From: Echinarachnius parma | Lineage: Eukaryota; Echinodermata; Echinoidea; Clypeasteroida; Echinarachniidae | Length of the DNA stretch: 64,000 nt | Assembly (NCBI GenBank): GCA_037951105.1 | Contig: JBAMJV010001319.1 | Location: 124,001-188,000 of the forward strand | Direction of reading: 5' to 3' | In this document: positions 13,186 to 58,100 of the stretch, one piece after another | How the letters are laid out: each line of letters starts with the position of its first letter | Position numbering within the stretch: position 1 is the stretch's first letter | Notes under the pieces: generated by a model | Databases searched by the model: none | The model's input: only the letters and a program-made list of their open reading frames with translations | Told to the model about the DNA's origin: nothing | Translations under genes and position numbers: made by a program

Positions 13186-16100
13186 CACATCCATTTTGTT
13201 TAAGAATGACCAAACATACTGTATTATTGTCTCCATAGTTGATTGAAAACTCTTCTCAAAATGTTTTTTCCAAGTCCAGGCATAGATATAGATTTCTAAG
13301 TTTGCTTTACCCCCCCCCCCCCTCCCCCCCCCCCCCCCCCTCCCCCTCCTACCAAAGGCATATTTCTTACCTAAAAATCCAATTATGTATTTTCCACGTT
13401 CAGGCATGGCTGATGAATTTGTTCCAAGTAACTAGACATTCAGGATACATTTCTCAGTTGAAATCCAATCATGTGTTTTCCAAGCTCAGACATAGATTAT
13501 ATCTTTTTACCATCTTACCAAACTTATCAGTGTCTATTTTAATACATAGTTTTGCCAGATGCAGTTAGAAATAATGTGTAGTACTGATCTGATCTTTGTA
13601 ATTTTTTAAAAATAAAACAGTCTGTATAGCTTACAGTATCACCAAAGTCGTATTTATATAATTCTATCTAAATATTTGTCATAATCAAACGAAAAGCCAA
13701 AAAACTCTCTCGTAGGTACCCATAAGAAGGGCTGTTTCAGAAGTATTTGAGTACATATACTTGGAATCAATAGAATACTGTACTCTGTATTACTTGTGGA
13801 GGTGTTGTGGCATGATCGGATAAGCACTTGACTTCCGATCTCGGGACCCGAGTTCGAACCCAATCGATGCCCCTGCATTTTATGTCCTTCAGCAAGGCAT
13901 TTAATCCACATTGCTGCTCTCTACCGAGGAGTATGAATGGGTACTTGGTCGGTTGTTAAATTAGCCTGTAGCGCTCTACATCATAGGGCAGCTTGGACTA
14001 GTATGCTCCCCTGGGAGTTGAGATGGTGCACAAGATAATTATGCGGGTTTGAACTGTACCTGATGACCAAGGGTAATAATGCGCCTCTGAATAGGGCACC
14101 TAGATACATGGCGCTCTATATTAAATGCTATATGTTATTATTGTATATTCTAAGTTTTGGCATAAGACAATTGATTGTTCTAAACTTACCAGATGTTCAT
14201 TCCAATTGTCCATATACATGTATCACTATCTATTAAGACTCCATCTTTGTCCCTTCTTTATTTACTTTTATATATTTTCCACTGGGAAATCAAGCCGTGT
14301 CTGCATTTTCTAAGATTGACCATAATCAACAAATTTTTGAAGAATTCCAACACATATCAGTGTCTATTGAAATTAAATTCTCTCCTCACCACCCAAAATG
14401 CTTTCCAAGATGAAATCCAACTTGTTTTTATTTCTAGGATGAGGCATCATCTTGTTATCTTTTACAAGTGATTATATTCAGAAATCCATTTCTATCTTTA
14501 AGCATTTCTCACTATCTCCTGTTATAATCCATGGTTTTGGAACATTTTTTTAGAGTGGGGGCTGACTATTAAAGAGAGTGGACCAGGGGACGTTTTAAGG
14601 CTTTTTATTTGTTTTGATTGTTGCTAAAAAAGTTGAGAGGAGGCAGCAGCCCCCCCCCCCCCCCTTCTCCCATGGTCCATGATAGTTCCTTATTTTCTTT
14701 ATTTCTAAGTATTCATAGTTGAGAAAACAGTGTTAATATTAAAATGTGACTGCCTAGTTCAATTTTCAAAGTGTTAGCACTGTACCATGTATGCTTATTT
14801 GTGTGGTACTTCTACTGACACGTTGCTTGTCACAAAAGTTTATGAATTTCCAAATCTCATTTTGGATGTGAATTTCAATAGCTTATGTTTACCCATTCAA
14901 ATTTTTGTTGGGGGGATATTGGTATAACGTGCAATCTCCATAGCCCTTAGCATTTGGGGATCAGTCCTTATATTCCTTATCAAGGAACAGGTTAACCTAT
15001 TCAAGATTATATTTGATATTGTATATAGCATTACTTCTATAGACCCCTTTCCAAGTATTTGTGGGACCATTCCTGAACAGGTTAACCTTTTCAAAACTAT
15101 ATTTTGGTATAAAGAAAGTGCATTGTCCATCGACCAAAATCCAAGTAACATGAAGCCCAATCCTGAATGGGTTAATGAAGCCAGCCACCTCTTGATCATT
15201 GGATCTTTGAAGATATTTTTATTCCGAATCCTGCAACAAGACTGTCCCTTTAAATCTGGGACATACCAGTGATAAACCAATAATGAATCACCTGTTCATG
15301 TATAGATACAACTGTGATCCATTTTCTACTTGCATTATGGAAAGATGCCAGCTCTTGTTTCATGCTCTATATACAACCCTCCTAACCCTAACCCTAGGAA
15401 ATTCCAATCTGGTTCTTCCCCCCTGCATTCAAATAATACCTCCTGACTCACCCACCCCCATCCTACTCCCAATCTTGCACCCCCTCCCCATCCTTTCTCA
15501 GTACCCCACCCTGGTCCCCATTCTCCCTTACTAATCCTTCATCTCACCCTACTCCAATCTTGCACCCCTACCCTATCCTTTCTCAGTACCCCATCCTGGT
15601 CCCCATTCCCCCTTACTAATCCTTCATCTCACCCTACTCCAATCTTGCCACCCCTCCCCATCCTTTCTCAGTACCCCATCCTGGTCCCCATTCTCCCTTA
15701 CTAATCCTTCGTCTCACCCTACTCCAATCTTGCACCCCCTCCCCATCCTTTCTCAGTACCCCCTCCCTATCCTTTCTCAGAACCCCATCCTGGTCCCCAT
15801 TCTCCCTTACTAATCCTTCATCTCACCCTACTCCAATCTTGCACCCCCTCCCTATCCTTTCTCAGTACCCCATCCTGGTCCCCATTCCCCCTTACTAATC
15901 CTTCATCTCACCCTACTCCCATCTTGCACCCCCTCCCTATCCTTTCTCAGTACCCCATTCTGGTCCCCATTCTCCCTTACTAATCCTTCAACTCACCCTA
16001 CTCCAATCTTGCACCCCTCCCTATCCTTTCTCAGTACCCCATTCAGGTCCCCATTCTCCCTTACTAATCCTTCATCTCACCCTACTCCAATCTTGCACCC

Positions 16101-19100
16101 CCTCCCCCATCCTTTCTCAGTGCCCCATTCTGGTCCACATTCTCCCTTACTAATCCTTCAACTCACCCTACTCCAATCTTGCACCCCCTCCCCATCCTTT
16201 CTCAGTACCCCATCCTGGTCCCCATTGTCCCTTACTAATCCTTCATCTCACCCTACTCCAATCTTGCACCCTCTCCCCATCCTTTCTCAGTACCCCATCC
16301 TGGTCCCCCTTCTCCCTTACTAATCCTTCGTCTCACCCTACTTTAATCTTGCACCCCCTCCCCATCCTTTCTCAGTACCCCATCCTGGTCCCCATTCTCC
16401 CTTACTAATCCTTCATCTCACCCTACTCCAATCTTGCACCCCCTCCCCATCCTTTCTCAGTACCCCATCCTTTCTCAGTACCCCATCCTGGTCCCCATTC
16501 TCCCTTACTAATCCTTCATCTCACCCTACTCCAATCTTGCACCCCCTCCCCATCCTTTCTCAGTACCCCATCCTGGTCCCCATTCTCCCTTACTAATCCT
16601 TCGTCTCACCCTACTCCAATCTTGCACCCCCTCCCCATCCTTTCTCAGTACCCCATCCTGGTCCCTATTCTCCCTTACTAATCCTTCATCTCACCCTACT
16701 CTAATCTTGCACCCCCTCCCCATCCTTTCTCAGTACCCCTTTCTGGTCCCCATTCTCCCTTACTAATCCTTCATCTCACCAATCTTGCACCCCTCCCCAT
16801 CCTTTCTCAGTACCCCATCCTGGTCCACATTCCCCCTTACTAATCCTTCGTCTCACCCTACTCCAATCTTGCACCCCTCCCCATCCTTTCTCAGTACCCC
16901 CATTCTGGTCCACATTCCCCCTTACTAATCCTTCATCTCACCCTACTCCAATCTTGCACCCCCTCCCCATCCTTTCTCAGTACCCCATCCTGGTCCACAT
17001 TCCCCCTTACTAATCCTTCATCTCACCCTACTCCAATCTTGCACCCCCTCCCCATCCTTTCTCAGTACCCCTTTCTGGTCCCCATTCTCCCTTACTAATC
17101 CTTCATCTCACCAATCTTGCACCCCCTACCCCATCCTTTCTCAGTACCCCTTTCTGGTCCCCATTCTCCCTTACTAATCCTTCATCTCACCCTACTCCAA
17201 TCTTGCACCCCCTCCCCATCCTTTCTCAGTACCCCCATTCTGGTCCACATTCCCCCTTACTAATCCTTCATCTCACCCTACTCCAATCTTGCACCCCCTC
17301 CCTATCCTTTGTCAGTACCCCATTCTGGTCCACATTCCCCCTTACGGTTTCTGACTGTAACTGCCTATCATACCTTGAACATACATGTACCTTGAAGACC
17401 ACACCTCACCATCTTCTTCATGAGAGTAGACGGTTTATGGGTGGCAGGGTTTATCACAAAGGGTATGTAACAGCACAAAAATACACATGGGGTTTAGGGC
17501 AATTTAGCCCTGGAAACACCCAAAACAGCTCCCCGAAAATCTTAAAGGAGCCCCTCATCTCACCCTTCTCCAATCTTGATTCTTATCTTTCTTCCCTGAT
17601 ACCTGATTATTCCTTCCTGACATTGAAGTATTAAAGAGAACTAACACCCCAAATAATATTTGTATAAATAGAAGGTAATACTGTAGTTTTATTAGTCCAT
17701 TCTACCAACAAGTTCAGAAAAATAGGTTTCCAGACAAATTACATAATTGGAAAACTTATCACCATATATGTGTTCATGGGTCTGCAAAAGAAGACTATTA
17801 TCTGGGATATACGCATCTTCCAACCTGACATTTTGGTATTAACTCGTTTAGGACTGGTCCCGAACCCCCCCCCCCCCCCCCCCCCCCGGGCTGTAGTCTA
17901 TAGAGAATGCATGTTATACCGAAATGAAATAGTATTGTTAACCCATAGATAGCTGAGCTTGGATTATAGATATTCATTGATTTGTTTAGTATTGCTATGT
18001 AATTATATATAACAGCTGATTTTTATTTTAAGTGACAAACATTTGGGATGACTTTTTCTTTATTTTAAACTCTCTTTTCAGTGATGTGGCGTATGAGACC
18101 GGTTCAGTGGCGCAGTTTGCTCGCTCACTATGGAGAGTGGAACTCATCTTGAAGAAGTAAGTTGGATGCCCTGACAATGCTATGTTCATTCATTATTACG
18201 GCATTGAAAATACGACATAATGCATTTATGAAGGAAAAGACTGCACTATTAAAACACGTTTTCTTATAAATCATGATTTTTTTGTGTGTCCAATTTTGAT
18301 TCCTCTGACCTACTTGTGCCTGTTTTATTTCATGTCTTGTCGCTTACAGTGCACAAATAAAAAGGTAACAAGCTGTTTATAGATTTTCAACAAATACTTC
18401 ACAATTTTCATTGTATAAGCACACATTTTGGAGAAAAACAAGAGGAAGGCAGTAAAGAAAATCCACCAAGATTCTCAATAAAATCCCTTGGGGGTGATGA
18501 GTTTAAAGTGATACATTAACTCCATAACTTTTTTTCCTAAAGCGATATTTGAGACTTCGCTCATAAACCAGTATCATCTATATGAAGATTCTTCTCAATT
18601 ACTTAGTGAAAAACAAAAGTGAAAATTGATGTTAGATTCTATCAATTTCTGCACATTGATTGAATTTGATGAAAATTAATGGGTATGCCAGAAGGCAGGC
18701 TGCTACAAGGAGAAACATAATGACAGCTTGTTTATAAACTATCAGTTGATGTTTTCTTTTGTTCTGCCTTTGACTGTCTTATCCTCTGATTGTTTATAAA
18801 CTATCAGTTGATGCCTCCATGTTTTTTACCCTTTCAATGTCCAATCCACTATAAATTAACCCTTGCATTACCGAGCAATGAGAAAGTATTGATTTCACTT
18901 TAAACACTTATTGTCCCTGGGTTACTGAAGAGTTACTATGTAACTATGGCCCCCTTGTGTTTCCTACGCAGGACAGGATTCACGAAAAAAACACTCTGTC
19001 CCTCAGTAGGATGATAAATAGAGGTCTCGTGTATGACACAGCCAGATCTTATGCACGCAAAAGAACCTAGGCTATTACTACTAGAAAAGATTAGGGTGTT

Positions 19101-37100: not shown

Positions 37101-40100
37101 TATACAACAATTATAGCGCTTAATACACGGTTTCTAAGCGCTGAGAAATAAAAAAAGAGACAAGTATTAACCAATGAACTAAAAGCTTAATCAAATAATT
37201 TCCATTGATTTCATACTTACATGCCATACCATGTTTTTGCAAGCTATCGGTTTAAAGGGGTAGTTTAGTTTTGGTAGAGAGGGCGCTGCACATCGCAATT
37301 TTTTTGTGAGGTTATGAAAAACTGAGTGTCGAATTTGAGAGAACATGCAATTTTAATGGCAGAATAAACTTTATTTGGTCAAAATCGACCCGGAAACGGC
37401 TGAAATATCAATAAATATATCTGATCTTATAATTATTTGGGGCGCAAATAATTAGATGATTTTTTGAAAAAATAAAAAAAATGCTTGCACTTTTTCAAAA
37501 ATTTTCAAAAGCATTTTTTAAATGGTTGTTGATGATCTCGCTATTTAATCATTATATCAACAAAACATCACATGTGCATAATTTTGGTTGAAAATGGTTG
37601 AAACCAATGCCTTTTAAAAAAGTGCCCTCTTGTGTTTTAATGGCTCTTTTTGAATGATAACAGGCGTTTTACTTGGTCGTTTGTAATTTTGTATACCTTT
37701 CGAGCATGGTGGAGTTATAACTATTAGTTTATAATGTTACTGTGCAGGTTTTGGCTACTAAAGTTCAGCCTTACCAAAACTAAACTACCCCTTTAAAGGG
37801 ATAGTTGAGTTCTGGTAGAGAGAGTACAGTTTTAGTCAAACTGAATTTTATTAACCAAAACCTGCACCATCACATTACAAAGTAATAGATATAACTCCAC
37901 CATGCTCAAAAGGAATATAAAATTACAAACGACTAAGTAAAAAGCTTGTTATCATTCAAAAAGAGCTGTTTAAACTAAAGAGGGCGCTTTCAAAAAACAC
38001 ATTTGTTTATACCATTTTAAATAAAATATTGTGCATGTGATGTTTTGTTGAAATAGTGATTAGATATAGAAATAATCAACAATTATCTAAAACCTCTTTT
38101 GAAAATTTTTGAAAAGAGGAAGCATTTTAAAACAAATTTTAACGGCTGGTTCAAAATTATCGAATACTTGTGGGGCCCCACATTTATTACAAATGGTTGT
38201 TTATGGATATTTCAGCCATTTCTGAACCAATTTTTATCAAATAAAGTTTATTCTGCCATTAAAATTGTATGCTCTTTCAAATTTGACACTCAGTTTTTCA
38301 TCATCTCACCAAAAAAAATTTGTGTAGCTCCCTCTCTACCAAAGCTCAACTATCCCTTTAATATTTATTTGATGAGTTCAAATGCAAATTTTTTTTTTCT
38401 TTCAGTTTTTAGATAAAGATTGCATCATATAGCAACAAATTTTATCTTTTCAATTTTACCTTTCTGATTTTGTATCATGACATACTTCTGAAGATATGAT
38501 TAAAACTATCCCATGTTTTCTTACTATTTTCATTGTTGATAATACAGCAGATTAAATCCCAATTACATATCTTGAATCCGTAAAATGTCTTTATTGTTGT
38601 TTTGTTTTGCATATAAACCCTTGATTTGTTGCTTCATCCAGGGCATGGTCAAACTGGTGCTGGTAGCCATTGACAAGCTGAGCTTCTTCAAGAGCGGCCG
38701 AGACTTTGCCGCCATCGTGGGCGAGGATGCGGGCGATCTCTGGCAGGACATCGTCACCTACCTGTACAAGCTGCTCGGTGAGTGGTGCCAATTTACTGAG
38801 TGATTGCAGACTAGTATTAAAAAAGAATTACTTAACAATGTACAATGCTCTCATCCGAATGAGCTGATTATGCATGTGAACTGTTAAAAATTGATGGGAA
38901 TACATTGTCAACTACCTGTACAAGCTGCTCGGTGAGTTGTGCCAATTTGCTGAGTCTTTGCTGACCAGTAATAAAACTACATAATGTGCAATTCTCTTAT
39001 CTGAATAAGCCGATAGTGCATGTGAACTGCAAAAAATCAATAGGAAGACATCGTCACCTACACCTGTACAAGCTACTTGGTGAGTGGTGCCAATTTACTG
39101 AATGGTTGCAGACTAGTATCGGAACTAAGCTACAATGTACTGTACATGTACATGTATATGCAATTCTCTTATCTGAATGGTCTGATTGTGCATGTGAACT
39201 ATACAAGCCGCTCAGTGAGTGGTGCAAATTTACAGAGTGATTGCATACTAGTAATACAAAAATATATCGTGCAATTCTCTTACCCTTATTGGCTGAGTGT
39301 AAGTGAACTGTAAAACTAACAAAATTGGAACAGTATACATTTTTTAGAGAAATTATGAAAGGAATGGTCAAATAAATTGGTAAGGTAACTTTGACTGCAT
39401 AATTGTAAGTATGATTGTTTATGTCATGGGGCAATCTATACACATGAGCTAAATTCAATTAACTGTGTTGTGATTTGTTATTTAGCCTATGTAGATGTGT
39501 ATGATTGATTTTGTAATTTAAAATAAGCTTTATTGATTGAATGTGATCTGCATGTACATGAAAGTCATGATACATGTAGCTAACCGATATTTTAATGGTT
39601 TCCTTTTATACAGCGGCCATGATCAGGCATAACCACAACAATTGTGCCTTATTCGCTCAGTCAGTGAGACTGGACTGGCTCATCAACAGGCTAGAGAGTC
39701 AGCAGGCTTCGAGAGGTAAGACCAATGATTTCTTTTATTGGGTATAAAGGTAAACTCTATTTTGAGTACCGTAGTTGAAAACATGCTCAGGAATAACCCC
39801 AATAATTGTGCCCTATTTGCTAATTCAGTGAGTTTTGATTGCCTCAAAAGTCTACTCCTTTAGCGGATAAGGTGTACTCTATCACAAATAGTTGAAATTA
39901 TGATAAAGGCAAAACCACAACTGTGCCTTATAAACCTAGTTATTGGGAAGAGCCAGCAAGCTCAAGGGTAACTGTCAAGAGTACATGTAAATCACAAGAC
40001 TGTTCATCTACAGTCAGCTTTAAAAAAAATTTAAAAAAATTATGATTATTCTGAAAAGGCAAAATTAAAGGAAGTACGAAAGGCCTTCTATATAAAATAA

Positions 40101-43100
40101 GTTTAGAACAGCATTCTCATCATAATCAAGAATAATACATGTTTTTTTATTCAATGATATATTTCTCTGCCCAAACAAACTGTTGTTCTTCCCCAAAAAA
40201 ATTCATTTCGCTTCTTTTTTTTCTGATTCAGGTGTCCTTGAGGTGCTACACTGTGTCTTGTTGGGAAGCCCAGAGGCTCTCAATATCATCAAGGAGGACC
40301 ACATCAAGTCCATGATATCCCAGCTGGACAAACATGGCAGAGACCCAAAGGTAAGGGCCACATCTCACTCTCTCTTTCTCTCTTGGTACGGTTCCATCAT
40401 GGCTGTCAGCTCGTGACTTTCATGATGACCGCATCAAGGACCACATCAAGTCCATGATATCCCAGCTAGACAAACATGGCAGAGACCCAAAGGTAAGGGC
40501 CACATCTCACTCTCTCTTTCTCTCTTGGTACGGTTCCATCATGGCTGTCAGCTCATGACTTTCATGATGACCGCATCAAGGACCACATCAAGTCCATGAT
40601 ATCCCAGCTGGACAAACATGGCAGAGACCCAAAGGTAAGGGCCACATCTCACTCTCTCTTTCTCTCTTGGTACGGTTCCATCATGGCTGTCAGCTCGTGA
40701 CTTTCATGATGACCACATCAAGGACCACATCAAGTCCATGATATCCCAGCTGGACAAACATGGCAGAGACCCAAAGGTGAAATACATATATGGCATTGAC
40801 TCATCAGCAATGACCTTCAGGACACATTTACCTTGCCCAGCCCAGCTATGCAACCAAATTTAACAAACATTGTATTTTTTCGAGAAACCTATTCTTGATA
40901 AGTCTTTGATACTTTGTACTTTGAAGAAAGTTAAATTCTAGAATGAGGCAATCAACACTTTAAATCTTTATGGAACTCAAAGTTAGATAATCTGCTTAGA
41001 GCTAATTACACAGAAAGATTGGTCAGGGTTAATGGAAGCTAACCAATTCATGACTTTTTAACAAACTTTAATATGGCATGCATTCTACATAGACTCCAGC
41101 ATGAAGTAATTCAAGCATACCAAGTTTAATCTACTGTTTGATTTCTTCTTTATGGGCTAAGCCTACATTTTCTGTGTTCATTGTTTGTTGGTAATAGAGT
41201 GGCTTGATTTACACACAAAATACATTTGTAGGGTTAATGAAAGTTAAATTAAGCCATTCATGACTTTTTATCATTTTGGGTATTACATAAATGCTTCACG
41301 GACCCAATCAAAACCTGATTTGTGGCAACCTCCTTCCAACTAGAGATCTGCTCTTGCAAACAGCTGTAGTGGTTGAAGTTGTCATAGAATCCAGCATGCA
41401 GCATTTTGATCCATAGTTCATACAGGGGTGTACTTACTAAGTTTATTCTACTGTTTGCTTTCTCCCGTAGGTGCTAGACGTTCTGTGTTCCCTGTGTGTT
41501 GGTAACGGAGTTGCCGTACGCTCCAACCAAAACCTCGTATGTGACAACCTCCTTCCCACTAGAGATCTGCTCCTACAAACAGCTGTAGTGGATGAAGTTG
41601 TCATAGAATCCAGCATGCAGCATTACGATTCAAAGGGATATACTTATGCCATGTTTAATCTACTGTTTGCTCTCTCCCGTAGGTGCTAGATGTTCTGTGT
41701 TCCCTGTGTGTTGGTAACGGAGTGGCCGTACGCTCCAACCAAAACCTGATATGTGACAACCTCCTTCCAACAAGAGATCTGCTCCTTCAAACAGCTGTAG
41801 TGGATGAAGTTGTCTGGTAAGTCATCACAGAACTGATGTTTACTTTTCTTTAATGAAAGTGAGCAAAGAAAATTAGGCTTTGCTGGGGCTTGAACTGGAG
41901 ACTAAGTATTGCTGTTACGATTTAGCTACAATGTACAAAGCACTTGTTCTGTAAACCTGATGTTTACCTGTGTTAAAAAGAAGATATTCCTGTAAACTTT
42001 ATTATTATTTTGTCCTGTTTGAAGTACATGAGAAAGAGAATGCAAGATTCATTGCCTTATGTTTCTTAATGTGTATCATCAATGAGAATGATGTTTATCG
42101 TTGAAATTGACTCTGGGAACCTGATGTGAAGTGTAAAAAATGTATGGGAACCACAATTTCATGAAGATATGACATTATAATTTATTGACATTGATAAATT
42201 CTTGAAGGTACATGTAAGACATTGATGAATTCTTGAAGACACAAATGAAGACATAAACCATTTCTTGACATTGATAAATTCTTGGAGATATACATGTATG
42301 TGCATAAAAGACATTAATCATTTCCTTGCTTCTGTTCTTTTCAATGCAGTATGCGCCCCAACGTGAGCATCTGCGTTGACAAGCGCAGCACGTTCTACAA
42401 GAAGTGGTACTTTGAGGTGGCCATCGACAAGCAGGAGGCTGGCACCTCCCGACCGGTCCATTTCAGGGTGGGGTGGGCCACATCGGCAGGTTTCCGCACC
42501 TACCTGAGGGGCGGGGAAGGTTGGGGCAACACCGGTGTGGGGGACGACCTGTACTCGTTTGGTTTCGACGGCATGAACCTATGGACAGGTACAAAACAGT
42601 ATTACATAATAGTAATGGTAAATGTGATGGTGATGACTGAAATGTTGATGGTAGTAGTGTTGATAGTGAAGATGGTGATGGGTACAATTGTGATAAAGAA
42701 TATACAATCATGATTACAATGGTTATGATAATGCTGACAGTAATGATGACTGTAACAATGATGATGATGATGATGATTTTGACGATGATGATTGTGATGA
42801 TGACGATGATGACGATGACGACGATGATGACAATGATGACGATGATGACGATGATGATGATAAAGAAGATAAAGAAGAAGATGACATTGATGATGACGAT
42901 AATGACATTGATGATGACGATAATGACATTGATGATGACGATAATCATAATAATGATGATGTTGACAATGACGATTGTGATGTTAGATTGATATGGTGAT
43001 AAAGGTGGTGATGATAATGATGGTGGCAGCATCCAATCATGAAGTTGTAATCATCATAATTTCTCTATCAACGCTTAGTATGTCACCTCCTTATCGTCTC

Positions 43101-46100
43101 TCTACTTTGTACGATCAGACACACCTAATGTAGAGTGCATTGTGTAAATGCAAAGCACTCTGGGTTTTTTCAGATGTGCGCAACGCAAGATGCATAAGCT
43201 GATGTGCACCATCTCTATCCATTCTTAGCACATGTTTTTCATTTCCTTATCTGCTCTCTACTTTGTTTGATTAGGTGGAGTGAGCAAGGCAGCATCGTGG
43301 AGCGGGAATCGGCTCCTCTCCAAAGGGGACATCGTAGGGGTGTGCTTTGATCTGAGCGTCCCCCGTATCCTCTACCATGTCAACGGGAACCCCATCAAGG
43401 CGTCCTTCGAAGCCATCAACTTGGAGGGCATGTTCTACCCCGTGCTCAGCCTCTCGGCCAGAGTTAGGTGGGTTCATTTTCATAATTTAATTCCTTTCCT
43501 TCAAGATTTTGAAATCCCTGTGGACTTTTTACATAGCCCACCAGGTTCATGTAGGCAAGGTTGTAGCCAGTTCAAGACCATTTCTTTTTGTATAATGTGC
43601 ATTATATCCATAGACTCCTGCCCAAGTATTTTCAAAATGCCTGAATATTTTCAAAATTTGTAAATTGGGTTAAATCTTAGGAGAAAATAAGTGTAGGAAG
43701 AATTTGCGTCTGAAATGTCTGTCAAATTCATTTTTCACAAAGAATTCAATGATAGCCACATACATGTAGCTTGTCTGAATACACTTTCATAAAGCAAAGT
43801 GCCAGGTTGATGTTAGTGCTTTCTCAATCGACAATGCAATGTGCATCCGTGGAAGCTAAGATTTATCATCTGGTCTTTGTAGACAGGTGGTCGCTAGAGA
43901 TGGTTAAGAACTAAATTCCCTGTTTGTTCCCCCCTTCCCTCTAGTGCTCGTTTCATCCTCGGTGGCAAACAGGGCCGGTTCAAGTACGCCCCACCCAAGG
44001 GCTTTGCAGCCGTCTGCGAGAGCGTGCTACCCAAGGAGAGGTTGAAGATCGAGTCTTGCTTTGTGTTTGGTGACGTGACAGAAGGCATTGTGCAAGGGCC
44101 TGCTATCTCACAAACACAGACTGCGTTCATCCCGGCACCTGTCGACACCGGCACCGTAAGTGTAAACATTGACACCAGTAGTGTATCTATGGATATTTAC
44201 CAAGATTTCTAAGGAGGCATTGTGCAAGGGCCTGCTTTCTCACAAACACAGACTGCGTTCATCCCGGCACCTGTCGAAACCGGCACCGTAAGTGTAAACA
44301 TTGACACCAGTAGTGTATCTTTATTTACCAAGATTTCTAACGAGCCATTTTCAGGGGCCTGCCATCTCAAGTTTTTCAGGAGGTGTTTTACTCAGTGTAT
44401 TGCACCAGCATTTTAAGTGTAAACATTGACACCAGTAGTGTATCTTACACTTCCAAATATTTGTTTAGGAGACATTGTCCAGGGGCCTGCCATCTGTGTT
44501 CATCCCAGCACCGTAAGTGTAAACATTGACACCAACAGTGTATCTTAAACTTGCAAAGGTTTCTAAGGAGGTGTAACTATGTGCAGCAAACATTGAGCAG
44601 TTAAAATGATTATATTTTAAATACTTTGTGACTTTTCTTCAGATTTCTGCAGATAACACTAGCCAAAATTATAAAATTAAGTATTAAATATAAATTTTTT
44701 ACTTTTGAATTGTTTACTAGACGGGATGTATTTTCCATCTTTCCTCATTCTACATGGTGCATGTATTCTAAATGATTTTTCATCCTCTGTACATTTTTTG
44801 TCAAGATGAGAACTATTTCTTAAACAGCATGAACCCCTTGAGTGCCAATAATGCATATTAGCACCACACAATACACACAAATGCCGTAGAGCTGTAGAAT
44901 CCCTACCATTCAAAGTTGAAACTTGAAACTCATTCATGACTTTTTATTTTATTGTTTTGTCTGACCTAAAGGTTGCTCTTCCCGGTTACATTGAGATGCT
45001 GCGAGACAAGCTGGCCGAGAACATCCACGAACTGTGGTGCATGAACAAGATAGAGGCGGGATGGACGTGGGGTCAGGTAAGTCACTGCTCTTTTATTTGT
45101 AATAGGCCGGGGGGGGGGGGGGGGTTGTCACAAAGATCCCAAGTCAAACTTAACAATAAGTCTTGACGTAAACAATTATGGGAAGCAATCAGTTTCTTTC
45201 TCTAAACAGGCCTACAGTTTTGATTAAAATAATTAATATTTTCTTTTATCAAAGAGTCTTCAAGTTTATATTTTTTCACAATTTTGTGGAAAGTTTGAAA
45301 TATTTCTATTTGGGCAATTGAACATGTTTAATTCCGAAGCTACAAATGGCTTTCCATAATTTTGAAGTCCAACTTATAGTTCGCCTTGGGATCTTTGTGA
45401 AACACTCCCAGGTCCAAGCTATGTGTCCTATATGTCATGCTCATTGCAGACCTCCCTATCTCCATATTTCTAATAGTTGAAACATATTTTTGTGAAAAAG
45501 TTGATTGCGATTGATGGCCGGTTCATGTTAAATAATTATTAGTGTTTTACAATTAGAACATTATTTTATTTTGATAGTTATACATGTAGACTGTAATGTA
45601 CAGGACAAGATGTAAATAAAGCTTGCTCAATAGCCACAATTTTTAAAACTTTCATATGTGTGTGTTTTTTGCAATGCTGTATTTGAGTAGATTCTGCTGA
45701 AAAAAACAATTTTTACCGTCTTAGGCTTTGGTACATTTTCTCTGAGACTTTTGTTTGTCCATATTTGTATTGTTTTTAACACTTGAATAAATTAGTAAAT
45801 GAAATTAAATTGTATCTGTATGAAAGTTCATCTGTATCCGAAATTAAATGATATTTTGATTCTGTTCCATTCAGATCCAAAATGATAACAAGATGGTGCA
45901 TGACAGTCGATGATAGCAAAAACCTTTTTTTTAATGTTATCAAAATCAAGTGCTTCCTCGGGAGTCAAGATTTGTTATCAGGTTTTTATGGACATGTGGT
46001 TGTTAGAGAAGTTTTAACAATTGATTCCCCCCCCCCTTCCATTGCCTGATTAAATTCATAAATGAAAACAAATGTTATTTTGTTTGTGTTCCATTCAGAT

Positions 46101-49100
46101 CCGAGATGACAGCAAGAAAGTGCATGACAGTCTGACCTTCTTCTCCGGTCTTTCGGAGCAAGAGAAGAACTTTGACATTACCATGGCTTACGAGACTCTC
46201 AGGTATCCATCTATGACTTGAACTTCCTTTTCGCCTTCCATTTTAAAATTGTGTCTTAGACATCACATTGCTTTGCTTTACAAGGCTCTTGTTTATCCAA
46301 CCATGCCTTGTACCTCCTTTCAGCATTCCACTTCAATAAAAAAATGTATGTCATTCAATAAAATGTACCTTTGACATCACTTTAACAATGGGTTAAAAGA
46401 TTTTGGGTTATCCACCATGCAATGTACAATATTTTAACCATCCATTTATCCAAAGTTAAAGTCTTTTCATAAATAGTAAAGTCCAGTTGAATAGATTTAG
46501 TTTTGTTTCTATGAACTCTTTCCTGGATGAATCAAGATCTACATCATCTTTTCAGAAACAATATATTATGCTGTTCTCATTCATCACACTTTATATTAAA
46601 TAGTCTAATATTTGTTGCAATTCTTTCTCTTTGTGGCAGAACTTTGATGGCTTTGGGGTATCACATTAGTATTGACGAGGAGACAGCCAAGTCGACTCTC
46701 AAGAGGTTGAGACTCCCCATGAAGTAAGTGGTACAGTCATACTATCGTCGGGTGAAAGTAAGAAGGGCGTTAATTGATTTTGTTTGCAGAACCCAGTTCT
46801 GTATACCAACAAAAACAGGCTAAATGTTTTTTTCACAAAGTGTTATTTCAAGCATTAATAGAAGAAACAGTAAGATAGAAATCCAGAGTGATTGAGCAAA
46901 TTTGATTTCTTTGTATTTTTATTTAATTTATTCATTTTGTCATGCTAACTGGAATGTAATCAGTGGAAAAAATGTTTCTGTGTATAACAATCATGGACTA
47001 CTGTACAATACATTTCTGTTCAATTAACCCGTTCCCTACGAGTTTCTAAAAATCCCCATAGACTTTGTACACAACCCACTTGGTTCCCGTGGTCAAGGGG
47101 TTAAATGTTTGTCCCGTTGTATTCCAGCTACAAGATGTTGAATGGGTACAAGCCAGCCCCCTCCAACCTGTCCAATGCCTACCTCAACTCAAACATCTAT
47201 AAACCCTATGGAAAATGAAAAATGTAGTAGACAGGTTTAAAAGATTGCTACTGCACAAATGTTCTCTCAAGCATTAAAGGAGAAACGGTAAACTAAAAAT
47301 CCCCAATTTTTACAAGCATTTTAATTTCTTTGTACATGTACATGTATGTATCCCTTTCTCTGTTCCATACAGCTACCTGATGTCGAATGGGTACAAGCCA
47401 GCCCCTTACAACCTGTCCAACGTCCACCTCAACTCCAAGATGGAGAGACTGGTGGAGCTACTGGCGGAGAACGCACACAACGTGTGGGCAAAGGACAGGA
47501 TTGCACAGGGATGGACATATGGTGTGAATGAGGTAGGCAACTCATGGCCATCTTTCTGGTTGTGGTAGAAGTGATGGTAATTATGGTAGTGGTGGTGGTG
47601 CAGGTGGTAGTGATGGTGGTTAAGGTAGTGCTAGTAGTGAGGGTGGTTAAGGTGGTGCTAGTAGTGGTGGTGATGGTAGTATTGGTAGTGCTGGTGATTG
47701 GGGTAGTTGTGGTGATGAAATTGCGGTAGAATTTGTGGTGGCGGTGGTGGTGGTGGTAGTAGTGGTGTTGATGGTGGTAGTAGTGGTGGCGATAGTCATA
47801 GTGATGGTGGTGGTTGTGGTGGTGGTAGTGGTGATCGTGGTAGTGGTGGTGATGGTGGCGGAAGTGGTGATGGTTGTGGTACTAGTTGTTATGGTGTGGT
47901 GATCATGCTTAATGTGGTGACTTCAGTAAATATAACAGTAATAATAATATACAAATGTATATGTGTGTACATGTACAATGTACATTAAATGCTCATATTT
48001 TGGTTGTTTCCAGGACACGTCGTACAAGCGCAACCCTCAGCTAGTGCCGTACAAACAGCTGGACGATGCTTCCAAGAAGCTGAACCGAGACACGGCGAGC
48101 GAGACGATCAGGACTATCTTGGGTTTTGGGTACCAACTGGAACCACCTACCTCGGAGGTCCAAGATCAAACTTTCAAGGGTATGTACGACCCCTTGGGGA
48201 GTCCACCTTCCCTCCATTGACAGGGGGTATCATGAGTGAACCAAGGACTTCCAAAAAGTACCCTAATCACCTATTCAAGACAAAAAATATACCGTAAACA
48301 AGTCATTCTTCATTTTTTGCTCAAATCTTAAATAAACGTACATGTAGATCAAACTTGAATCTTTCAATATAATTCATGTATTTGCCATGAAACACGCTGA
48401 ATAATAATTTGAGTATTTGCTTGCCCCCTGGAAAAAAGGGGGTTCCATCTGTGAACGGGCCTCACGGGGACCTGTGATACGAGGTCCCCGTAGCGCAGGG
48501 GTTGATTTCATGATTAAAAACTGACATGTACATTGTTTGCTTGTTTCTTGTTTGCAACCATTATGGATATTTTCATTTCATTTTGCAGACATGTTTATTC
48601 TCTTATCTCATTGAAAATGTTAGAAACAAATGAAATATGAAACTTTTTACAAATAACAATTTCTTTGCTGCTAATATACTTTAACATTTTAACATCCTCA
48701 GGTATGTCAAGAGACTTGTCGGGCAAGAAGCACCATACAAGAATCTTCCGAGCCGAGAAGACCTATGCAGTCACCTCTGGAAAGTGGTATGTACATGTCA
48801 TGACGTGACACTGCACAGTTTATTGTTAAATCTTTGCAGGTCCGTAGCCAGGATTTTCCAAGGGGGGCGGAGGGGGGGGGGGTGTGCGTTGCCACCGATT
48901 GTTGCCCCGTGATTACTGGTTTAGATGGCCAAGACCGATAAAAAGTAAACCCGAGCCTGATTAAAAGTGGACCATTCAGGATTTTTTTTTGGGGGGGGGT
49001 GCGTATGCACCCAATGCTCCCCCCTGGCTTTGGGCCTGTCTTTGTTCACATACACATTGATATTCATATAACTAAGAAGAATACATTTCTAAGTTACTAT

Positions 49101-52100
49101 CATGAAGAAGAAACAAAATCGCGCAAATAACTTGTTCTTACTCTCTATTACATTAATGAATTTATTTCCTTGTATGAATTCCAGGTACTTTGAGTTTGAG
49201 GTGATGTCGTCAGGATTCATGAGGGTGGGGTGGGGAAGGCCAAACATCCCGCCCGGCTCAGAACTGGGCACTGACGGCAACTCGTTCGTCTTCGATGGCT
49301 TCTTGGTGAGTTGCCTAATCCGGTATCTTAACAAATGTTTTCATTTGTAGATCTGTCCCATAGTCCACTACTATCATCCTACATTATATAATACAAACAC
49401 AGTTGTTTATTTCTCAGTAAACTATCAACATATATTTTCCCATTTCCTGCCCAAGCATATGAAAGAACATAGTTGAATCATAAACTTTTTAGAGACTAGA
49501 ACAAAATCTACTATAAAACCAAAATCTTGCAATCAAATAACCGATTAAATAAACTGTTTAGCTGATTAAGTCAACGAAGACCCACAGCATATGTGGGAAC
49601 TTGTGTAATAACACTTTGTTTGTTTGTTTATTTCTTCCTTAGGCAAGGAAGTGGAATCAGGGTTCTGAGGCGTTTGGCAAGCAATGGAGTGATTCAGACG
49701 TTATTGGCTGCATGCTCAACCTGGTCGACCTCACAGTCAGTGAGTAACGCTAAATTTGTTGAAATCTTTATATGCTAAAGATGTATAGCCTTTTCTTTGG
49801 TTGCTCTGTGGAGATGTTGTGGCACGATCAGATGACATCAGCACCGGACTCCAAAGTATGGGGTCATGATCCATTTATGTCCTTCAGTATAAAGCATCAT
49901 TCACATTATTGCTCTCTACCCAGGAGTATAAATGGGTACCATGGTGGGGTGTAAATTAAGTCTAATGTGCCAGTATACTTGATCCCAGCTGGTATGCTCC
50001 CCAGGGAGAAAGTGGCTAGTTTATTGTTATCTTTGGTACAATTGATAGAACACTAAGTCTTACAAAGTCTTCATTTATGTGTATAGTCTTTTCTCCTTGT
50101 TTGTTTCTGGTATTTGTAGTGTTTTATTATCCCAATGCATGGTCATATTTCAAGACAAGTCTCAATCTGTTTAAAAAGAAATTATCTTCAGTCCAGAATG
50201 AGAGATTTGTTTCTCTCTAAAATTTCTGCTTGCTTTTTTGTTGTTGCGATAATAAATATATACAGTTCCACATCCATATTTAATTGGCTCTTCCTTTGAT
50301 TAAATATATATAGTTCTGCATCCATTTTTATTGCTACTTTGGTTTTAAAACTAAAGTGACCCAATCAGAAGTTACACAATGTATAAATGTTATTCTCATT
50401 TTTGTTGCCATTTTCTAACCAGCTTTCACCTTGAATGGAGAGTTCCTCAGCGATGCTGTCGGATCAGAGTTGGCTTTCCATGAGTTTGACATCGGTGAAG
50501 GTAAGAGGAACTACTTTCATTTACTCACTTTCATATTACTTGTTTATTTCAATCCTTATGAAAAAGAAAACATTATTTTATAGTGAAACTTACATCACCA
50601 CAGCCATACACAATGCTCTCTTGGAGTGCAAACAATAGTCAAGACATTAAAGGGGACCACCAGGCAAAGAACAACACATAATTATATGTTTTGGTACCGT
50701 TTTGTGATATCAAATAGATACCCAACATTGTGCAAAGGGTCGTGTAAATTCATAAACAAAGCAATTCATTACCACCACTAATACGGAACCACTATTATTT
50801 CCTGGTTCCGTACGGGCCAAAAATTTGTGAGTGCGCCAATGCAATTCACGCATATGTTTGGAGACAATAGAATCCCGGACGATTCGTTCGCTCTGGACAA
50901 AGTAGTCTTCGTACATGCAGACCCATGAACGCATGCTTTAGAATGGTGATGTGTTTTCCAATTATATTTTTATTCTGGAAACATATTTTTGTGAACTTGT
51001 TGATGGAATGGACTACTAAAGATGCTACCTTTCATTTATAAGAATATTATTTTTGGGTGGTGGTACCCTTTAATACCAAAGGTGCCATCTTGCGAATGCC
51101 TTGCACTCGGTGCGTAATTTAGATCAAAATAAGTGTCCAATTACTGTAACTACCATGGCAACAGCTGTAATGCTCCATGCTGATTGGCTGTTGACCAAAT
51201 AGTTACAATAATTGGACACTTACAACAATTGCAAGTGTTTTATGAAATGGGCTACTGGCCTGGAATTTTCTTGTTATACATGTGTACTTTGATTTGATAA
51301 AACATGTTTGTTTTCTTCTTTCTGATGAAGGTTTTGTTCCAGTGTGTTTGATGGCATCAGGGGAGAAAGCTCAGCTTCACTTTGGCCAGGTAAACATTTC
51401 ATTTCCATCAGATGCATTTTTGTTTATTGAAAACAAAACAAAATAAAAATGATGAAAAATGTTCTGAATTTGTACATGTGATCTCACGTACATCGGGTTC
51501 ACATTGTGCATGTATAAACTCAATGAGCATCAACTGAACGTAGAATGTCTAGGAGAAAAGTGTTTGATGTACATGTATTTATTATCTTTCAATAATAGAA
51601 TACATGTATGTCATGAACTTGTTAACATTTTCATCAGATATGTTTATCTATTTATTTAATAAGTTGTTCTCCACTCATGGGATGGATTGCCCTTGTCAGC
51701 TACAAGCTGTTTTTCAAATGTAGATTTGTCTTTGTATTATTTTACAATAAACATTAAAAAGTATACTAGTCAGCATTAAATACAAAATAATGTTCTTACC
51801 TATTTTGTTCCCTTTAATAGGATGTGAACAACTTGAAGTATTTCACCGTGTGCGGGCTACAAGAGGGATTTGAGCCTTTCTGTGTGTAAGTACTCAACAA
51901 TTTATTAACTCAATTTTATAATAACTTAACAAAATACTAATTCAACCCATAGCCTAACAAAAACCTAGTAGGTCCTGTATTAACTTTATGAGGATTGCAA
52001 AATCTATTAGAAAATAGAGCGATCAATTAACTCCTTGAGTGCCAAGCTCGCATTTTTGCGAGTTACAATACACACAAATGCCATAGAGCATTAAAATCCC

Positions 52101-55100
52101 TGGCACTCAAAGTGTTAACTTATTGTGACTTCTAATGCTTACTTGTTGCAGCTGGTTTCGCAAATGCTTTATTAAAATGTACATTTTATTATAAAAGAGC
52201 TTGTTGAAATTAGAATTGGCTCGGTGACCCAGGTACATGAGGCCACTTTTCGTGTTTTCTAAATACATTTAGGTGGTGACTATACACAAGTTTGACTTTA
52301 GTTATACATGTGCTTATCAAGTCAAACTGAGAATGCAAATGCATCTTACATTCTATCTTATCTTATCTTGCCACATGAAACTTTTCTTCATAATTAATTA
52401 TGCTACAAGAAATACTGATCATCTTTGATAGAGGGGCTATTTGTATCGCTATACTGACATTTTACCTCTGTTTCATGTTGTTGTTTTTCTCTTTATTACA
52501 TTGTGTTCAAAATCCATTGATGTACTGTCCACAGCAATTGCTATCCCCGGTATGTTTTTATCATCTTACATACACTGTATGTGTCCGCTGTTTGGATGGA
52601 AAAAAAGAAAGCACTCGTTAAAAAGAAAAAAAACAGATGAAAGTGTTGTGCTTTGTCAAACTTGTTTTGCCCTGAACCCCAACCACTCCCCCCCCCCCCC
52701 TCCCCTCCCTCCCCCCCCCCCCTCCCTCCCTCCCTCCCTCCCTCTGGCCTCCTCTTACATGTACATGTTACTTTGTTATGTGTTGTGCTTGCTTTGCATA
52801 AAAGTTATGTAATTTACAGACTGGAAATTTTAACCCATTCCCTACAAGTTTATGAAATCCCCGTAGACTTTGTACACAACCCACTCGGTTCCCGTGGTCA
52901 AGGGGTTAAGGTTGTACTATAAACGTTATATACATATTCTTTATTTAACCTGTTCAGGACTGATTCATTTTGCTATAACATATATTCTCCATATACCCTA
53001 GCCTGAGTATTTTCAGGACCAGTCCTGAATGAGTTTATTGAACAATTTGAATGAATGTACAAAGGTGGCTTTGTGTATTAAAGTCTCCCGCATAATTGTG
53101 GCTGTATGGTTTTGGATGTAAATTCAGATTGCTTCAGCACTTTTGAAAAATATTGTTTTACCAAATATATTTCGTATATTTGTATATTTTAAATGCTTTA
53201 CAGCACAAAATCAATCAAAATGCATACTTCAATTAACTTTACACACGCCATCAAGGATAAGATATCTCATGCTGGCCTCTAGGTGTAGTGCTTGTTATAC
53301 CAGCATACAATTACCCTCGATGGGTTCATAGCATACAATTGCATGTAGCAAAGATTTGAAATGTAATTATTTGCAAAGATTTGAGATGTAATCGTTTGCA
53401 TACGATTTAGTTTTGTACTATGTGAGCATTGCACTGTTAGTTCAATGTACATATACATTGTAGATGATTTACAAAGAAATAAGATGTCCTAGTAGTTATT
53501 AAGGCTTCAACTAGCTGAAAGTTTTTCTCCAACAAAGATATAGCCATAAGAGACTGTTTTCAGTTCTGAATGGGGTAAAGGGATAAAACTCATACTAGTA
53601 CTTGGGATAAACGATCAAGCTTACTTGAGTGAAGATATTTTTTTTTTTTTTTTTCACGACAGCATGCACTACTTTGTTATATAGCTTATCATTATTGTAT
53701 TGTATTGTAAGAGCAGAGTACACTTTAAGCAATCTTATCCTCATGCTTTTGGTATATAACAAAAGTCAAGTCATGTACTTTTTTTGTTAGAAGAGCAGTT
53801 GCTTGAAATAATAAATGCGTTAAGGGCATTTCTTGCAATTATGCTGTATGTTCAGTTCAATATTTTGCTAAAGCACACAATTGGCCAATACATGTACAGA
53901 TGCTGTTGAACGCACTTTGTGATGAACTGGTTATTTATTTGTTTTATTATATTGTTTTATGAATTGTATTCTTCCATAATTTCAAGAAAAAATGGATGAT
54001 ATGTGACATACAATTTTTTGTTCAAGTATTTTTAAAAATGTATGACAGTTCTAGTTTGTTACTGGTAGATTCAAACAGTTGTTGATTATGTCTGATTTGT
54101 TTTTATACATGTACAATGTATGTGTAAGAGAGTTATTATCTTCACCATGTTATAATACATATAAGCTATAATTCAACTCTTAAATACATGTAAGAACGGA
54201 TGTTGGAGAAATTTCATAGAATACATTTTTAAATAGGGTTTAAACGATTGAGCACATACATGTACATCAACACTGTTGTTAGATAATTGTTGTTGTTGTG
54301 TAGAGGTGCTCCAGAATGATATGTGACCGGCTATAGCAAAACCGTGCACTTGCGGTAAAAATCAAAATGTAGATTTTCATACCATTATCAAAGGCCTCAT
54401 CACAAACTCTCATTTGATGCTTTGTTCTAACAAATTGGTCATTAATTGGCGAAGTTATGATTGTTTCAATTTTACAATCATAAGTCTTTTACACACATTA
54501 TGTGAACTTAAAATGCCAATTTCTTCAAAACATGAATTACTGACAAGTGCCAGGTTTTGGTATAGCCGGTCACATATAGCAAGGTAGATGAAAAGCAAAT
54601 AATGTAAATAATGTGTATAAAATTAATTATATTATTGTGAATGAATAAAGCTATGGTAGATTGCCTTTATATTTGCATACCTTTTTTGGTAAAAAATAAA
54701 CTCTAAAAGGGGGGGTTTTAAATGGATATTTTGCGTTTGATCTCTGTACAGGAACATGAAGAAGTCGATGCCCTTGTGGTACTCAAAGAGCCAACCGGTG
54801 TTTGAATCTATCGGCAACAATGATGACGAGGATGACCACGACAGAATATCAGTCACAAGGATACCGGCTGGGTAAGACTGAAGTATTTTATGGCCTAGAC
54901 CCACTAAAATGGTCAGTATCTAGCAAATTTTGAAGTTCCATGATGTTTTGGTTTACTACTTAAAAAGGAGCCGAATTATAAAAAGTATCCTACTAGTCCA
55001 TTCCGAACTTGGTCCGCATCATTTTGTTTCCTGCCAGTATTCTACTGGTACCTTTTGGATGTCAAACAGATAGGAAATGGAAGGATTAAAGGCTATAGTG

Positions 55101-58100
55101 GGACTAGGCCATTAAAGGGACTTAGTAACATTGTCCAAATCCTCAAAATACAATTGGAATTCTAGCGGTTCCCTCATACCTTGTTGTATTCGTATTAATA
55201 AAATCATGGGACAGGTTTCGGTTTTTCAAATTTCCCTTTCGTTAAAAAAATATTTATGATTTAAGTATTCAGATGATAAATAATCCAACGGATCGCGAAA
55301 ACCGTGTACAAAGTGAGTGCAATGAGTTTGTGAACATCACTTTGCATTTTTGCTCATTACTCGGCCATATAACGTCCATTTGACTTGAAATGTTCACACA
55401 ATACCCTGTGGACATATCAGATAACAATAATATTGCATCAACCATTCATCACTTTTTGCACATGTCAACAAAGCTACTAGATCCCTTTAATGATTGTTGT
55501 ATTTGACATCTACCAGTTTACATACGTTTAGTAGCCCGTTGGTTACAAATTAAACTTTTATTTTCTTGTAAAGGATTAATTATGAAAGCCTTGGCTGCAA
55601 TGAGGTCAATATCAATACACCATTATTGAATTAAAATCCAAATACTGCATTTTTAATTTACTGTCTAAATGTATGACATTCTGCTTAAATACCTTCTCAA
55701 GAAAAAAACCCAATATACTACAATGTAGGATGCCTACTTGGTATTATTCTAAAATATTTGAAAGTGTTATTTAGTGTCAATATAAAACTCTGCATCAATC
55801 TGTTGAAATGAATTTCTGTGTTAATTATTTTATCTCATAGTTTATATGTCTTCCTATAAACCTAAAAATGAGGAGTCCGACTGGTCTAAAAAAAACTTGG
55901 CCTGGGGTCATGGAGAATACATATACATGATATAACAGTTCATCAAATACATCCAGTCTTCAAGGGGTTAATTCAAAGAAGCATAGAAAGAAATGTTAAC
56001 ACTATACCTAAATTATTTAAATGTATTTCTTTAATCCTGTGTTTATAATTGCAGTATTGAGGGACCACCATGCCTGAAGGTTTCTCACAAGAAATGCGGT
56101 GCGATGGAGAACCTCCCAACCGAGTTCCTCAGGCTCAGCATGCCTGTTGAGTGCAGGGACTTCCCCACCAGGTGAGATTCAATAAAATAGCCTGATGCAA
56201 GTAGATATATACTTGTACCAATGAAATGAGGTTATAATGATTGGAATGAGTGCAGTATTGAGGGTCCACCCAATGCATGTGTGGTTGCCAGGCAACAAGC
56301 GTGGTCAGTTGATCCAGCAAGCAGCTACTCATACTAGTCTAGATATCAGTGACACATATGTAATTATACAAATTATGAATTTGCTATCATTATTTCTCAC
56401 CCCCTCCTCTGCCTATCTCCCTATCTCTCTCAGTGGTGAGATGGTGTTGTCCATCTCCATCCCCGTCCTGTCGCCTGGCAACCAGGGTGGTCAGTGGAGC
56501 CAGCATGCAGCTACTGATCTAAATCTCAGTGACACATATTCAAATGATGATTATAACGCTATGATTATTTTATCTCCCCATCACAATCATTATTATCTCT
56601 CCATCTCCTCTGTTTATCTCCCTTGCTCCCTCCTTCTCTCATTGGTGAGACGGTGTTGTCCATCTCCGTCCCCGTCCTGTCGCCTGGCAACAAGCGTGGT
56701 CTGTGGATGCAGCAATCAACTACTGATATTAATCTCAGTGACACATATTCAAATGATGATTTAACTATGATTTTTTTTCTCTCCCTCTCACAATTATTAT
56801 TATCTCTCCCTCTCACAATTATTATTATCTCTCCCTCTCCTCTCCTTATCTCCCTCGCTCCCTCCTTCTCTCAGTGGTGAGATGGTGTTGTCCATTCCAG
56901 TGCCCATCCTGTCGCCTGGCAACAAGCTTGGTCAGTGGATCCAGCGAGAAGCTACTGATCTAAATCTCAGTGACGCATATTCAAATGATGATTAAACTAT
57001 GATTATTTTCTCTCCCTCTGTTTATCTCCTTCGCTCCCTCCTTCTCTCATTGGTGAGATGGTGTTGTCCATCTCCGTCCCCGTCCTGTCGCCTGGCAACA
57101 AGCGTGGTCTGTGGATGCAGCAATCAGCTACTGATATTAATCTCAATGACACATATTCAAATGATGATTATAAAGCTATGATTATTTTATCTCCCCATCA
57201 CAATCATTATTATCTCTCCCTCTCCTCTGTTTATCTCCCTTGCTCCCTCCTTCTCTCATTGGTGGGATGGTGTTGTCCATCTCCGTCCCTGTCCTGTCGC
57301 CTGGCAACAAGCATGGTCAGCAAGCAGCTACTGATCTTAATCTCAGTGACACATATTCAAATGATGATTATAAAGCTATGATTATTTTATCTCCCTATCA
57401 CAATCATTATTATCTCTCCATCTCCTCTCCTTATCTCCCTCGCTCCCTCCTTCTCTCAGTGGTGAGATGGTGTTGTCCATCTCCGTCCCTGTCCTGTCGC
57501 CTGGCAACAAGCATGGTCAGCAAGCAGCTACTGATCTTAATCTCAGTGACACATATTCAAATGATGATTATAAAGCTATGATTATTTTATCTCCCTATCA
57601 CAATCATTATTATCTCTCCATCTCCTCTCCTTATCTCCCTCGCTCCCTCCTTCTCTCAGTGGTGAGATGGTGTTGTCCATTCCGGTGCCCATCCTGTCGC
57701 CTGGCAACAAGCGTGGTCAGTGGATGCAGAACGCCGCTGCTAGTCTGGACCTGAGTGAGACTGATTCCAACGAGGGTTTGGCACGCAGGGCACGCTCAGG
57801 ACTAGACAAAATGGGTAAGATATGTGTGTATTTTTATGTGCGTACTTTGAATTTGGGGCTATGCAAATTGTGGTAGATCATCATTATCCTTGTTATTATG
57901 TATTGATTAATTATAGTTATTGTTAGTATTGGTATTTTTGTTTTACTATGATGACTTATTATTTGTATGATGAAATGGTTATTATTATTATTATTATTAT
58001 TTGTATAATTATTATTATTCTTTTTATAATTATTATTATTATTTTTATAATAATTATTATTATTTTTATAATTATTATTATTATTTTTATAATTATTATT

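Follow-up and report, generated by a model that had tools for sequence, protein, structure and literature searches.

Why should exon after exon of a large gene be accompanied, in the adjacent intron, by extra and mostly partial copies of itself? The question is raised by a ryanodine receptor (RyR) gene of the echinoid Echinarachnius parma (assembly GCA_037951105.1, 1.2 Gb in 14,790 contigs). We have analyzed the 64,000 nucleotides between positions 124001 and 188000 of contig JBAMJV010001319.1, hereafter the window, whose numbering is used throughout, together with the flanking parts of the contig. A first-pass annotation had reported such copies at nine exons (E10, E11, E12, E13, E16, E18, E20, E29, and E30) and had attributed them to repeated, local events. 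We propose that the exon copies are probably “mirages,” that is, local tandem duplications across one exon-intron boundary, mostly with 130-260 bp per unit.

Boundary-spanning tandem arrays were detected by self-BLAST of the window and contig. This revealed arrays at E10, E12, E13, E16, E18, E20, and E30, with unit sizes in agreement with those annotated before. The copies of E11 and E29 fell below the self-BLAST threshold, yet none of 400 stretches taken from a single other long intron scored as high. Hence, extra partial copies in the adjacent intron were confirmed at all nine exons, strongly at seven and weakly, although above chance, at E11 and E29. The arrays differed in step size and decay, which supported repeated, local events of varied age over one event.

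Most exon arrays carry one splice site and none carries both

The arrays lying on exons of the RyR gene (30000-172146) and of four dynein heavy-chain stretches described below numbered 36, with exons taken from ab initio predictions by a gene finder trained on this RyR gene. Splice-site classes were assigned by hand. Thirty-four arrays carried one splice site (23 an acceptor and 11 a donor), two carried none, and none carried both; one dynein array (L048 7744-8907), in which acceptor-type and donor-type pairs are merged, was counted as acceptor-type. This agreed with the two complementary kinds of copy annotated previously, and the imbalance between acceptors and donors was not significant (P = 0.058). 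Under random placement of the same units, 20% would carry both sites, corresponding to 7.3 expected arrays versus none seen (P = 0.0003). This points to a selection filter that removes duplications of the whole exon with both sites. If so, the two complementary boundary types exist because harmful whole-exon duplications have been lost.

According to the mechanism that we propose, duplication of only the 3′ part of an exon and its donor would leave the first copy attached to the exon, and duplication of only the acceptor and the 5′ part would leave the last copy attached. Normal mRNA would still be possible in both cases, so that splicing would be undisturbed and the allele would survive. Duplications of whole exons with both splice sites would be removed by selection. 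Spare copies would decay neutrally and some arrays would grow, probably by unequal exchange. The same process would act in other large genes of the genome, where it would still yield allelic differences, and exon edges would be struck more often than uniform placement predicts, presumably for a mutational reason.

Anatomy of the copies at the nine exons

All features described here lie on the plus strand. The real exons are supported by their open frame, in E10 continuous with its neighbors, and by the gene finder, and the frame check and gene finder together showed that one continuous reading frame is available when a single copy per array is used. The copies at E10, E12, and E16 are of the donor type. 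The array of E10 (exon 38642-38777, RIH region) occupies 38747-39315 and is composed of about 30 bp of the exon 3′ end with donor and intron, in three decayed extra copies at steps of about 154, 146, and 137 bp; its decoy donors rank at the 61st, 58th, and 17th percentiles among real donors. At E12 (40232-40350), the array (40295-40778) has the form X-Y-X-Y-X-Y-X with a 142-bp unit, 98.5% identical, where X is 58 bp of exon end plus GT and Y is an 84-bp linker with a 5′ piece of a dispersed element; two decoy donors reach the 64th percentile. The E16 array (44080-44571; exon 43945-44155) repeats the last 76 bp of the exon, the donor, and intron in a 132-bp unit, with progressively more decayed copies and decoy sites at the 0-9th percentile.

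The 57-bp piece at 40373-40429, repeated in the E12 array, matches the start of a dispersed element that resembles a short interspersed nuclear element and was seen in at least 39 further places of the genome. About 100-280 bp of this element are common between copies, often with CT repeats ahead (L033-L044).

Copies of the acceptor type lie upstream of their exons. Those of E13 (41117-41682; exon 41683-41816) comprise the intron end, the acceptor, and the exon minus its last 2 bases, in an array spanning 41117-41814 with steps of 212-219 bp and decoy acceptors at the 74th and 1st percentiles. The E18 copy (45840-45908; exon 46099-46202) holds the acceptor and the first 34 bp of the exon (array 45840-46132, step 224 bp, decoy site at the 63rd percentile), and the E20 copy (47125-47196; exon 47373-47532) holds the acceptor and the first 69 bp (array 47125-47441, step 245 bp, 49th percentile). 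Upstream of E30 (57660-57814), several copies in units of about 200 bp of intron, acceptor, and 5′ exon half extend over 56284-57659, the array in self-BLAST being 56284-57773, with three decoy acceptors at the 7th-10th percentile.

The two weak copies scored above the intron background. That of E11 (39614-39715) is a 65-bp, exon-internal piece of 80% identity at 39782-39846. That of E29 (56055-56171) resembles the acceptor and exon start, as had been annotated, but is a mere 29 bp long (56251-56279) and lies downstream of E29, heading the E30 array. The two boundary types annotated before were confirmed, with the correction that the copies of E13 contain nearly the whole exon.

Arrays occur along the RyR gene and in dynein genes

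The pattern had been regarded as particular to this locus. In the 255 kb of contig, we found 53 tandem arrays. The RyR gene between 30 and 172 kb contained 32 arrays, 20 lying on predicted exons (21 once one exon missed by the finder was added), and arrays touched 20 of 89 predicted exons. The density of arrays was not peculiar to 38-58 kb.

In a listing of 108 matches to the dynein heavy-chain domain, 9 of the 20 contigs, with two apparent allelic pairs among them, had partial copies close to each other; on one of the nine, the two domain matches were 1,250 bp apart. Among dynein loci with listed copies, tandem pairs were present at the DNA level in all eight examined. Four 10-kb stretches beside the domain, picked unseen on two contigs with listed domain copies and two without, contained 19 arrays, 15 of which were on exons. 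With 15 of 39 predicted exons affected in dynein heavy chains versus 20 of 89 in RyR, the copies were at a similar density in other genes and locus specificity was not borne out. A single event or a locus-specific quirk is ruled out by the arrays along the RyR gene and in the dynein genes. Of the families looked at (RyR, dynein heavy chain, and tektin), the first two showed copies, and from these we infer that the process may reach genome-wide.

Mobile elements were considered as well and rejected as the common origin of the arrays: part of a dispersed element lies in the E12 linker, but the E10 array matched only itself.

Two further boundary arrays were seen in the RyR gene. Before the window, at -6094 to -5379, several partial copies with a 166-bp unit lie ahead of an exon. 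At 167353-167878 (contig 291353-291878), a 260-bp tandem duplication, 100% identical, contains the acceptor and 38 bp of an EF-hand-like exon; this perfect duplication either arose very recently as a boundary copy or reflects an erroneous assembly.

Exon copies in paired contigs

Two dynein loci were each present on two contigs (L049/L050 and L051/L052), whose main aligned segments were 91-97% identical and which, from their alignment, we read as alleles. The assembly seems to keep both alleles of some loci, which are 3-9% diverged and between which several indels range in size from about 90 bp to more than 1 kb. L051 and L052 had two exon arrays in common, one of 157 bp (152 bp in L052) and one of 195 bp, and L049 and L050 a weaker exon copy (81-83%). 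As these exon copies are common to both contigs of each pair, the arrays are unlikely to be assembly errors, which for diverged copies had also been the opinion of the first-pass annotation. L052 alone contained an extra unit in which the end of the intron, the acceptor, and the 5′ part of the exon were present and 24 bp were deleted; this unit aligned through intron and exon with the following unit and reflects a gain there or a loss in L051. The presence of this unit in L052 only indicates that the process still makes allelic differences.

Excess of arrays at exons

Arrays were on exons in 36 of 51 cases versus 12.5 expected, a count that omits the 5′ part of RyR, whose roughly 52 kb include large introns, a single exon array, and several other arrays and would weaken the excess if included. 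For units of 100-300 bp, the corresponding values were 33 of 39 versus 9.6. Predicted pseudo-exons that were the copies themselves (two in RyR and one in L045) had been removed before these counts, and the exon at 106612-106701, missed by the finder, had been added by hand. Unit size did not differ between exon arrays and other arrays (medians 181.5 and 163, P = 0.58). It is conceivable, and we put it forward tentatively, that the edges of exons form a genuine hot spot in this lineage for tandem duplications of about nucleosome size, where an exon-tied process (e.g., chromatin or transcription) would write copies genome-wide.

Alternatively, tandem duplication may be uniform and seen through a bias, exon copies being noticed because one of their sides is protected from change. 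We consider this rather doubtful. It is compatible with the arrays found off exons (11 within the tested 142 kb of gene; 17 in the first 98 kb, at least one of which is on an exon) and with the slight excess in the youngest class (6 of 14 versus 3.0, P = 0.047). Exon pairs also decay more slowly; at 16% divergence per copy, simulated detection recovered 43 of 55 exon-straddling pairs versus 26 of 55 intronic ones. However, detection was similar up to 12% divergence (54/55 versus 54/55, 54/55 versus 51/55, and 53/55 versus 46/55), and the excess stayed when arrays were matched for age (14 of 24 versus 5.1, P = 0.00005). It also stayed in RyR with exons masked (11 of 23 versus 4.7, P = 0.002, with one later-found exonic array still counted as intronic). 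Guanine-cytosine (GC) content was rejected as the whole cause, as it covers only part of the excess: arrays were on 21.1% of exon windows and intronic arrays on about 6% of intron windows with a GC of at least 0.42. Across GC classes, intronic arrays were on 1-8% of intron windows, without a steady rise at the top.

Shape of the duplication events

Multi-copy arrays were mostly head-to-tail, and there, as in the 260-bp pair, match length equaled the step. Among the two-copy pairs on the contig, the match was below 0.9 of the step in 19 of 27. We have then compared the rest of the unit in 25 hand-picked, non-random pairs, five of which (L027, L028, L030, and two of L031) belonged to loci chosen for showing copies; one pair was dropped because its spacer was too short.

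Several observations weigh against the mirage reading. Of the 24 pairs compared, only one showed clear similarity (z above 3) over the remainder of the unit; the mean z was 0.97, and high identity of the exon piece (91-98%) did not change this. Such poorly alignable remainders imply that plain head-to-tail duplication does not account for these two-copy pairs. Some births may have been insertions of exon pieces, or exon parts may have been homogenized while introns diverged. Tektin genes gave no close partial copies among the 35 matches listed, in a coarse listing inspected by eye, so either the process spares some genes or the listing overlooked short copies. For the exon excess, which the RyR 5′ part would weaken, exon chromatin or transcription is a speculative cause.

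The insertion of exon pieces, by which templated repair would copy them into a nearby intron break (X-Y-X) with later (XY)n expansion, is unlikely as a general origin. The form of the E12 array (XYXYXYX, with part of a dispersed element in Y) would fit it, as would the many young two-copy pairs whose match is mostly exon and ends near a splice site while the rest of the unit is mostly not alignable. On the other hand, the freshest RyR boundary copy (the 100% identical pair at 167353-167878, with its 260-bp unit) is plain head-to-tail, the extra allelic unit of L052 aligns with the next unit across intron and exon, and intronic pairs show partial matches as well.

Copies behave as unconstrained sequence

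Since regulated or poison splicing had been suggested for the copies, we have looked at their constraint. In 43 alignments of RyR exon copies, not all of them independent, identity of the exon part was 89.3%, and the differences comprised 104 synonymous changes, 163 non-synonymous codons, and five stops. The resulting ratio was 0.64 versus about 0.67 calculated for an unconstrained copy next to an exon under constraint. The RyR exon copies hence look, by their substitutions, as if they evolve like unconstrained sequence, and conserved copies were rejected on this synonymous/non-synonymous pattern. Duplicated exons with a function (mutually exclusive or cassette) were rejected likewise, none of the 36 arrays having both sites and the RyR copies being unconstrained.

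Apart from intact-looking decoy sites, no positive evidence for regulated or poison splicing emerged. By their scores, several of these sites are comparable to real ones (two donors of E12 at the 64th percentile and one acceptor each of E13, E18, and E20 at the 74th, 63rd, and 49th), as would be expected if copies were kept for regulating or poisoning RyR splicing; others are weak (E13 at the 1st, E16 at the 0-9th, and three E30 acceptors at the 7th-10th percentile). That role is nonetheless very improbable judging from the sequence: the RyR copies lack constraint, and the seven decoy splice readings, one per exon, all run into stops. Moreover, dynein genes have an equal or higher copy density, and copy number differs between alleles of a dynein gene.

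An assembly artefact, which would concern the near-identical E12 array (98.5%) and 260-bp pair (100%), is the least credible explanation. The copies are for the most part diverged, and three of those at dynein exons recur on both contigs of their pair, in two pairs that were assembled separately and whose contigs are about 3-9% apart.

The gene and its exons

A continuous frame over 24 hand-drawn exons up to E27 indicated that the ryanodine receptor is encoded on the plus strand from 30 kb on, and Pfam RIH, RyR, SPRY, and MIR domains were found. The exons up to E27 aligned to residues 304-1239 of solved RyR2 chains. Thus, the nine-exon region, which had been placed in the middle of the gene, corresponds to about the first quarter of the protein. 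With the hand-drawn exons as its training set, a gene finder extended the gene to +172146, and the joined exons matched RyR chains. The 5′ end lies at least 22 kb ahead of the window, to at least -21932, where upstream exons matched RyR. No RyR pore region was recognized before the contig end (309114), so the 3′ part of the gene is on another contig or missing.

The earlier exon numbering seems to omit a 15-bp microexon at 52535-52549 (plus strand) between its E27 and E28, which the gene finder predicted as phase-consistent with a weak score. A large RyR 5′ intron contains an 85-bp C-rich satellite of about 22 copies (15459-17345).

Relation to known systems and implications

Mirages were described in the amphioxus globin genes BflGb6 and BflGb9 and in Adh3, the globins having units of 150-160 bp, 81-100% identical, in numbers of 6 versus 3 by haplotype and with splice signals kept in many units (PMC3087553). 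In lancelet PGBD5, imperfect 60- and 108-bp tandem repeats lie over the 5′ and 3′ splice sites, and the same account adds PGBD5 and TnC to the mirage-bearing genes (PMC3902484). Overall, the published descriptions are of minisatellite-like units of 10-160 bp, 81-100% identical, that leave regular splicing unaffected, in cephalochordates. A lancelet as source of the present sequence was rejected: lancelets have many genes for green fluorescent protein (GFP), whereas a GFP domain search, run with no positive control, gave no match here, and two tektin pieces were, as counted by eye, identical at about 98 of 118 and 147 of 157 residues to chains of the sea urchin entry 8snb, the next chains, named Tektin-1 and Tektin-4, being far less similar.

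The E. parma arrays resemble these in spanning a boundary (34 of 36 with one splice site), in affecting both the 5′ and 3′ exon boundaries (23 acceptor-type and 11 donor-type), and in a unit number that differs between haplotypes (L052 versus L051, at one dynein exon, in contigs read as alleles). Their units are mostly 130-260 bp, often longer than published, and the identities of their exon parts reach lower (69-100%). Mirages are reported from a few cephalochordate genes, and the PGBD5 repeats from one gene, whereas here 20 of 89 RyR and 15 of 39 dynein predicted exons of an echinoderm are affected, with a measured exon excess and none of 36 arrays being a whole-exon copy, all known from sequence alone. 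In tandem exon duplication and intron gain by internal tandem duplication, local duplication of splice-site-bearing sequence reportedly leads to whole exons or new introns. The duplication of splice sites is equally local here, with whole exons with both sites in 0 of 36 arrays and no new intron shown.

The earlier statement that no such pattern had been described stands for RyR as far as the literature search went, but not in general, given the mirages of lancelet Adh3, globin, TnC, and PGBD5 genes. The search, a small part of which targeted sea urchins or echinoderms, found no echinoderm report of mirages. The novelty here lies in the host lineage and the scale, together with a bias toward exons (36 of 51 arrays versus 12.5) for which simulated detection bias and GC do not fully account.

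For annotators, the copies are a warning, as they score as exons in gene finders: in our first run on the RyR gene, two of four extra predictions were copy-derived exons; the finder also lost one real exon inside an array. From their sequence, the exon copies look like harmless mutational debris that accumulates unusually often at exon edges. Were the exon excess genome-wide, it would represent a mutational bias toward the edges of exons, and the age series of fresh, allelic, and decayed copies would make proposed routes for the birth of introns and exons by boundary duplication directly testable. If exon edges are indeed a hot spot, a fifth to a third of the exons of large genes would carry decaying copies, a supply for new introns and exons.

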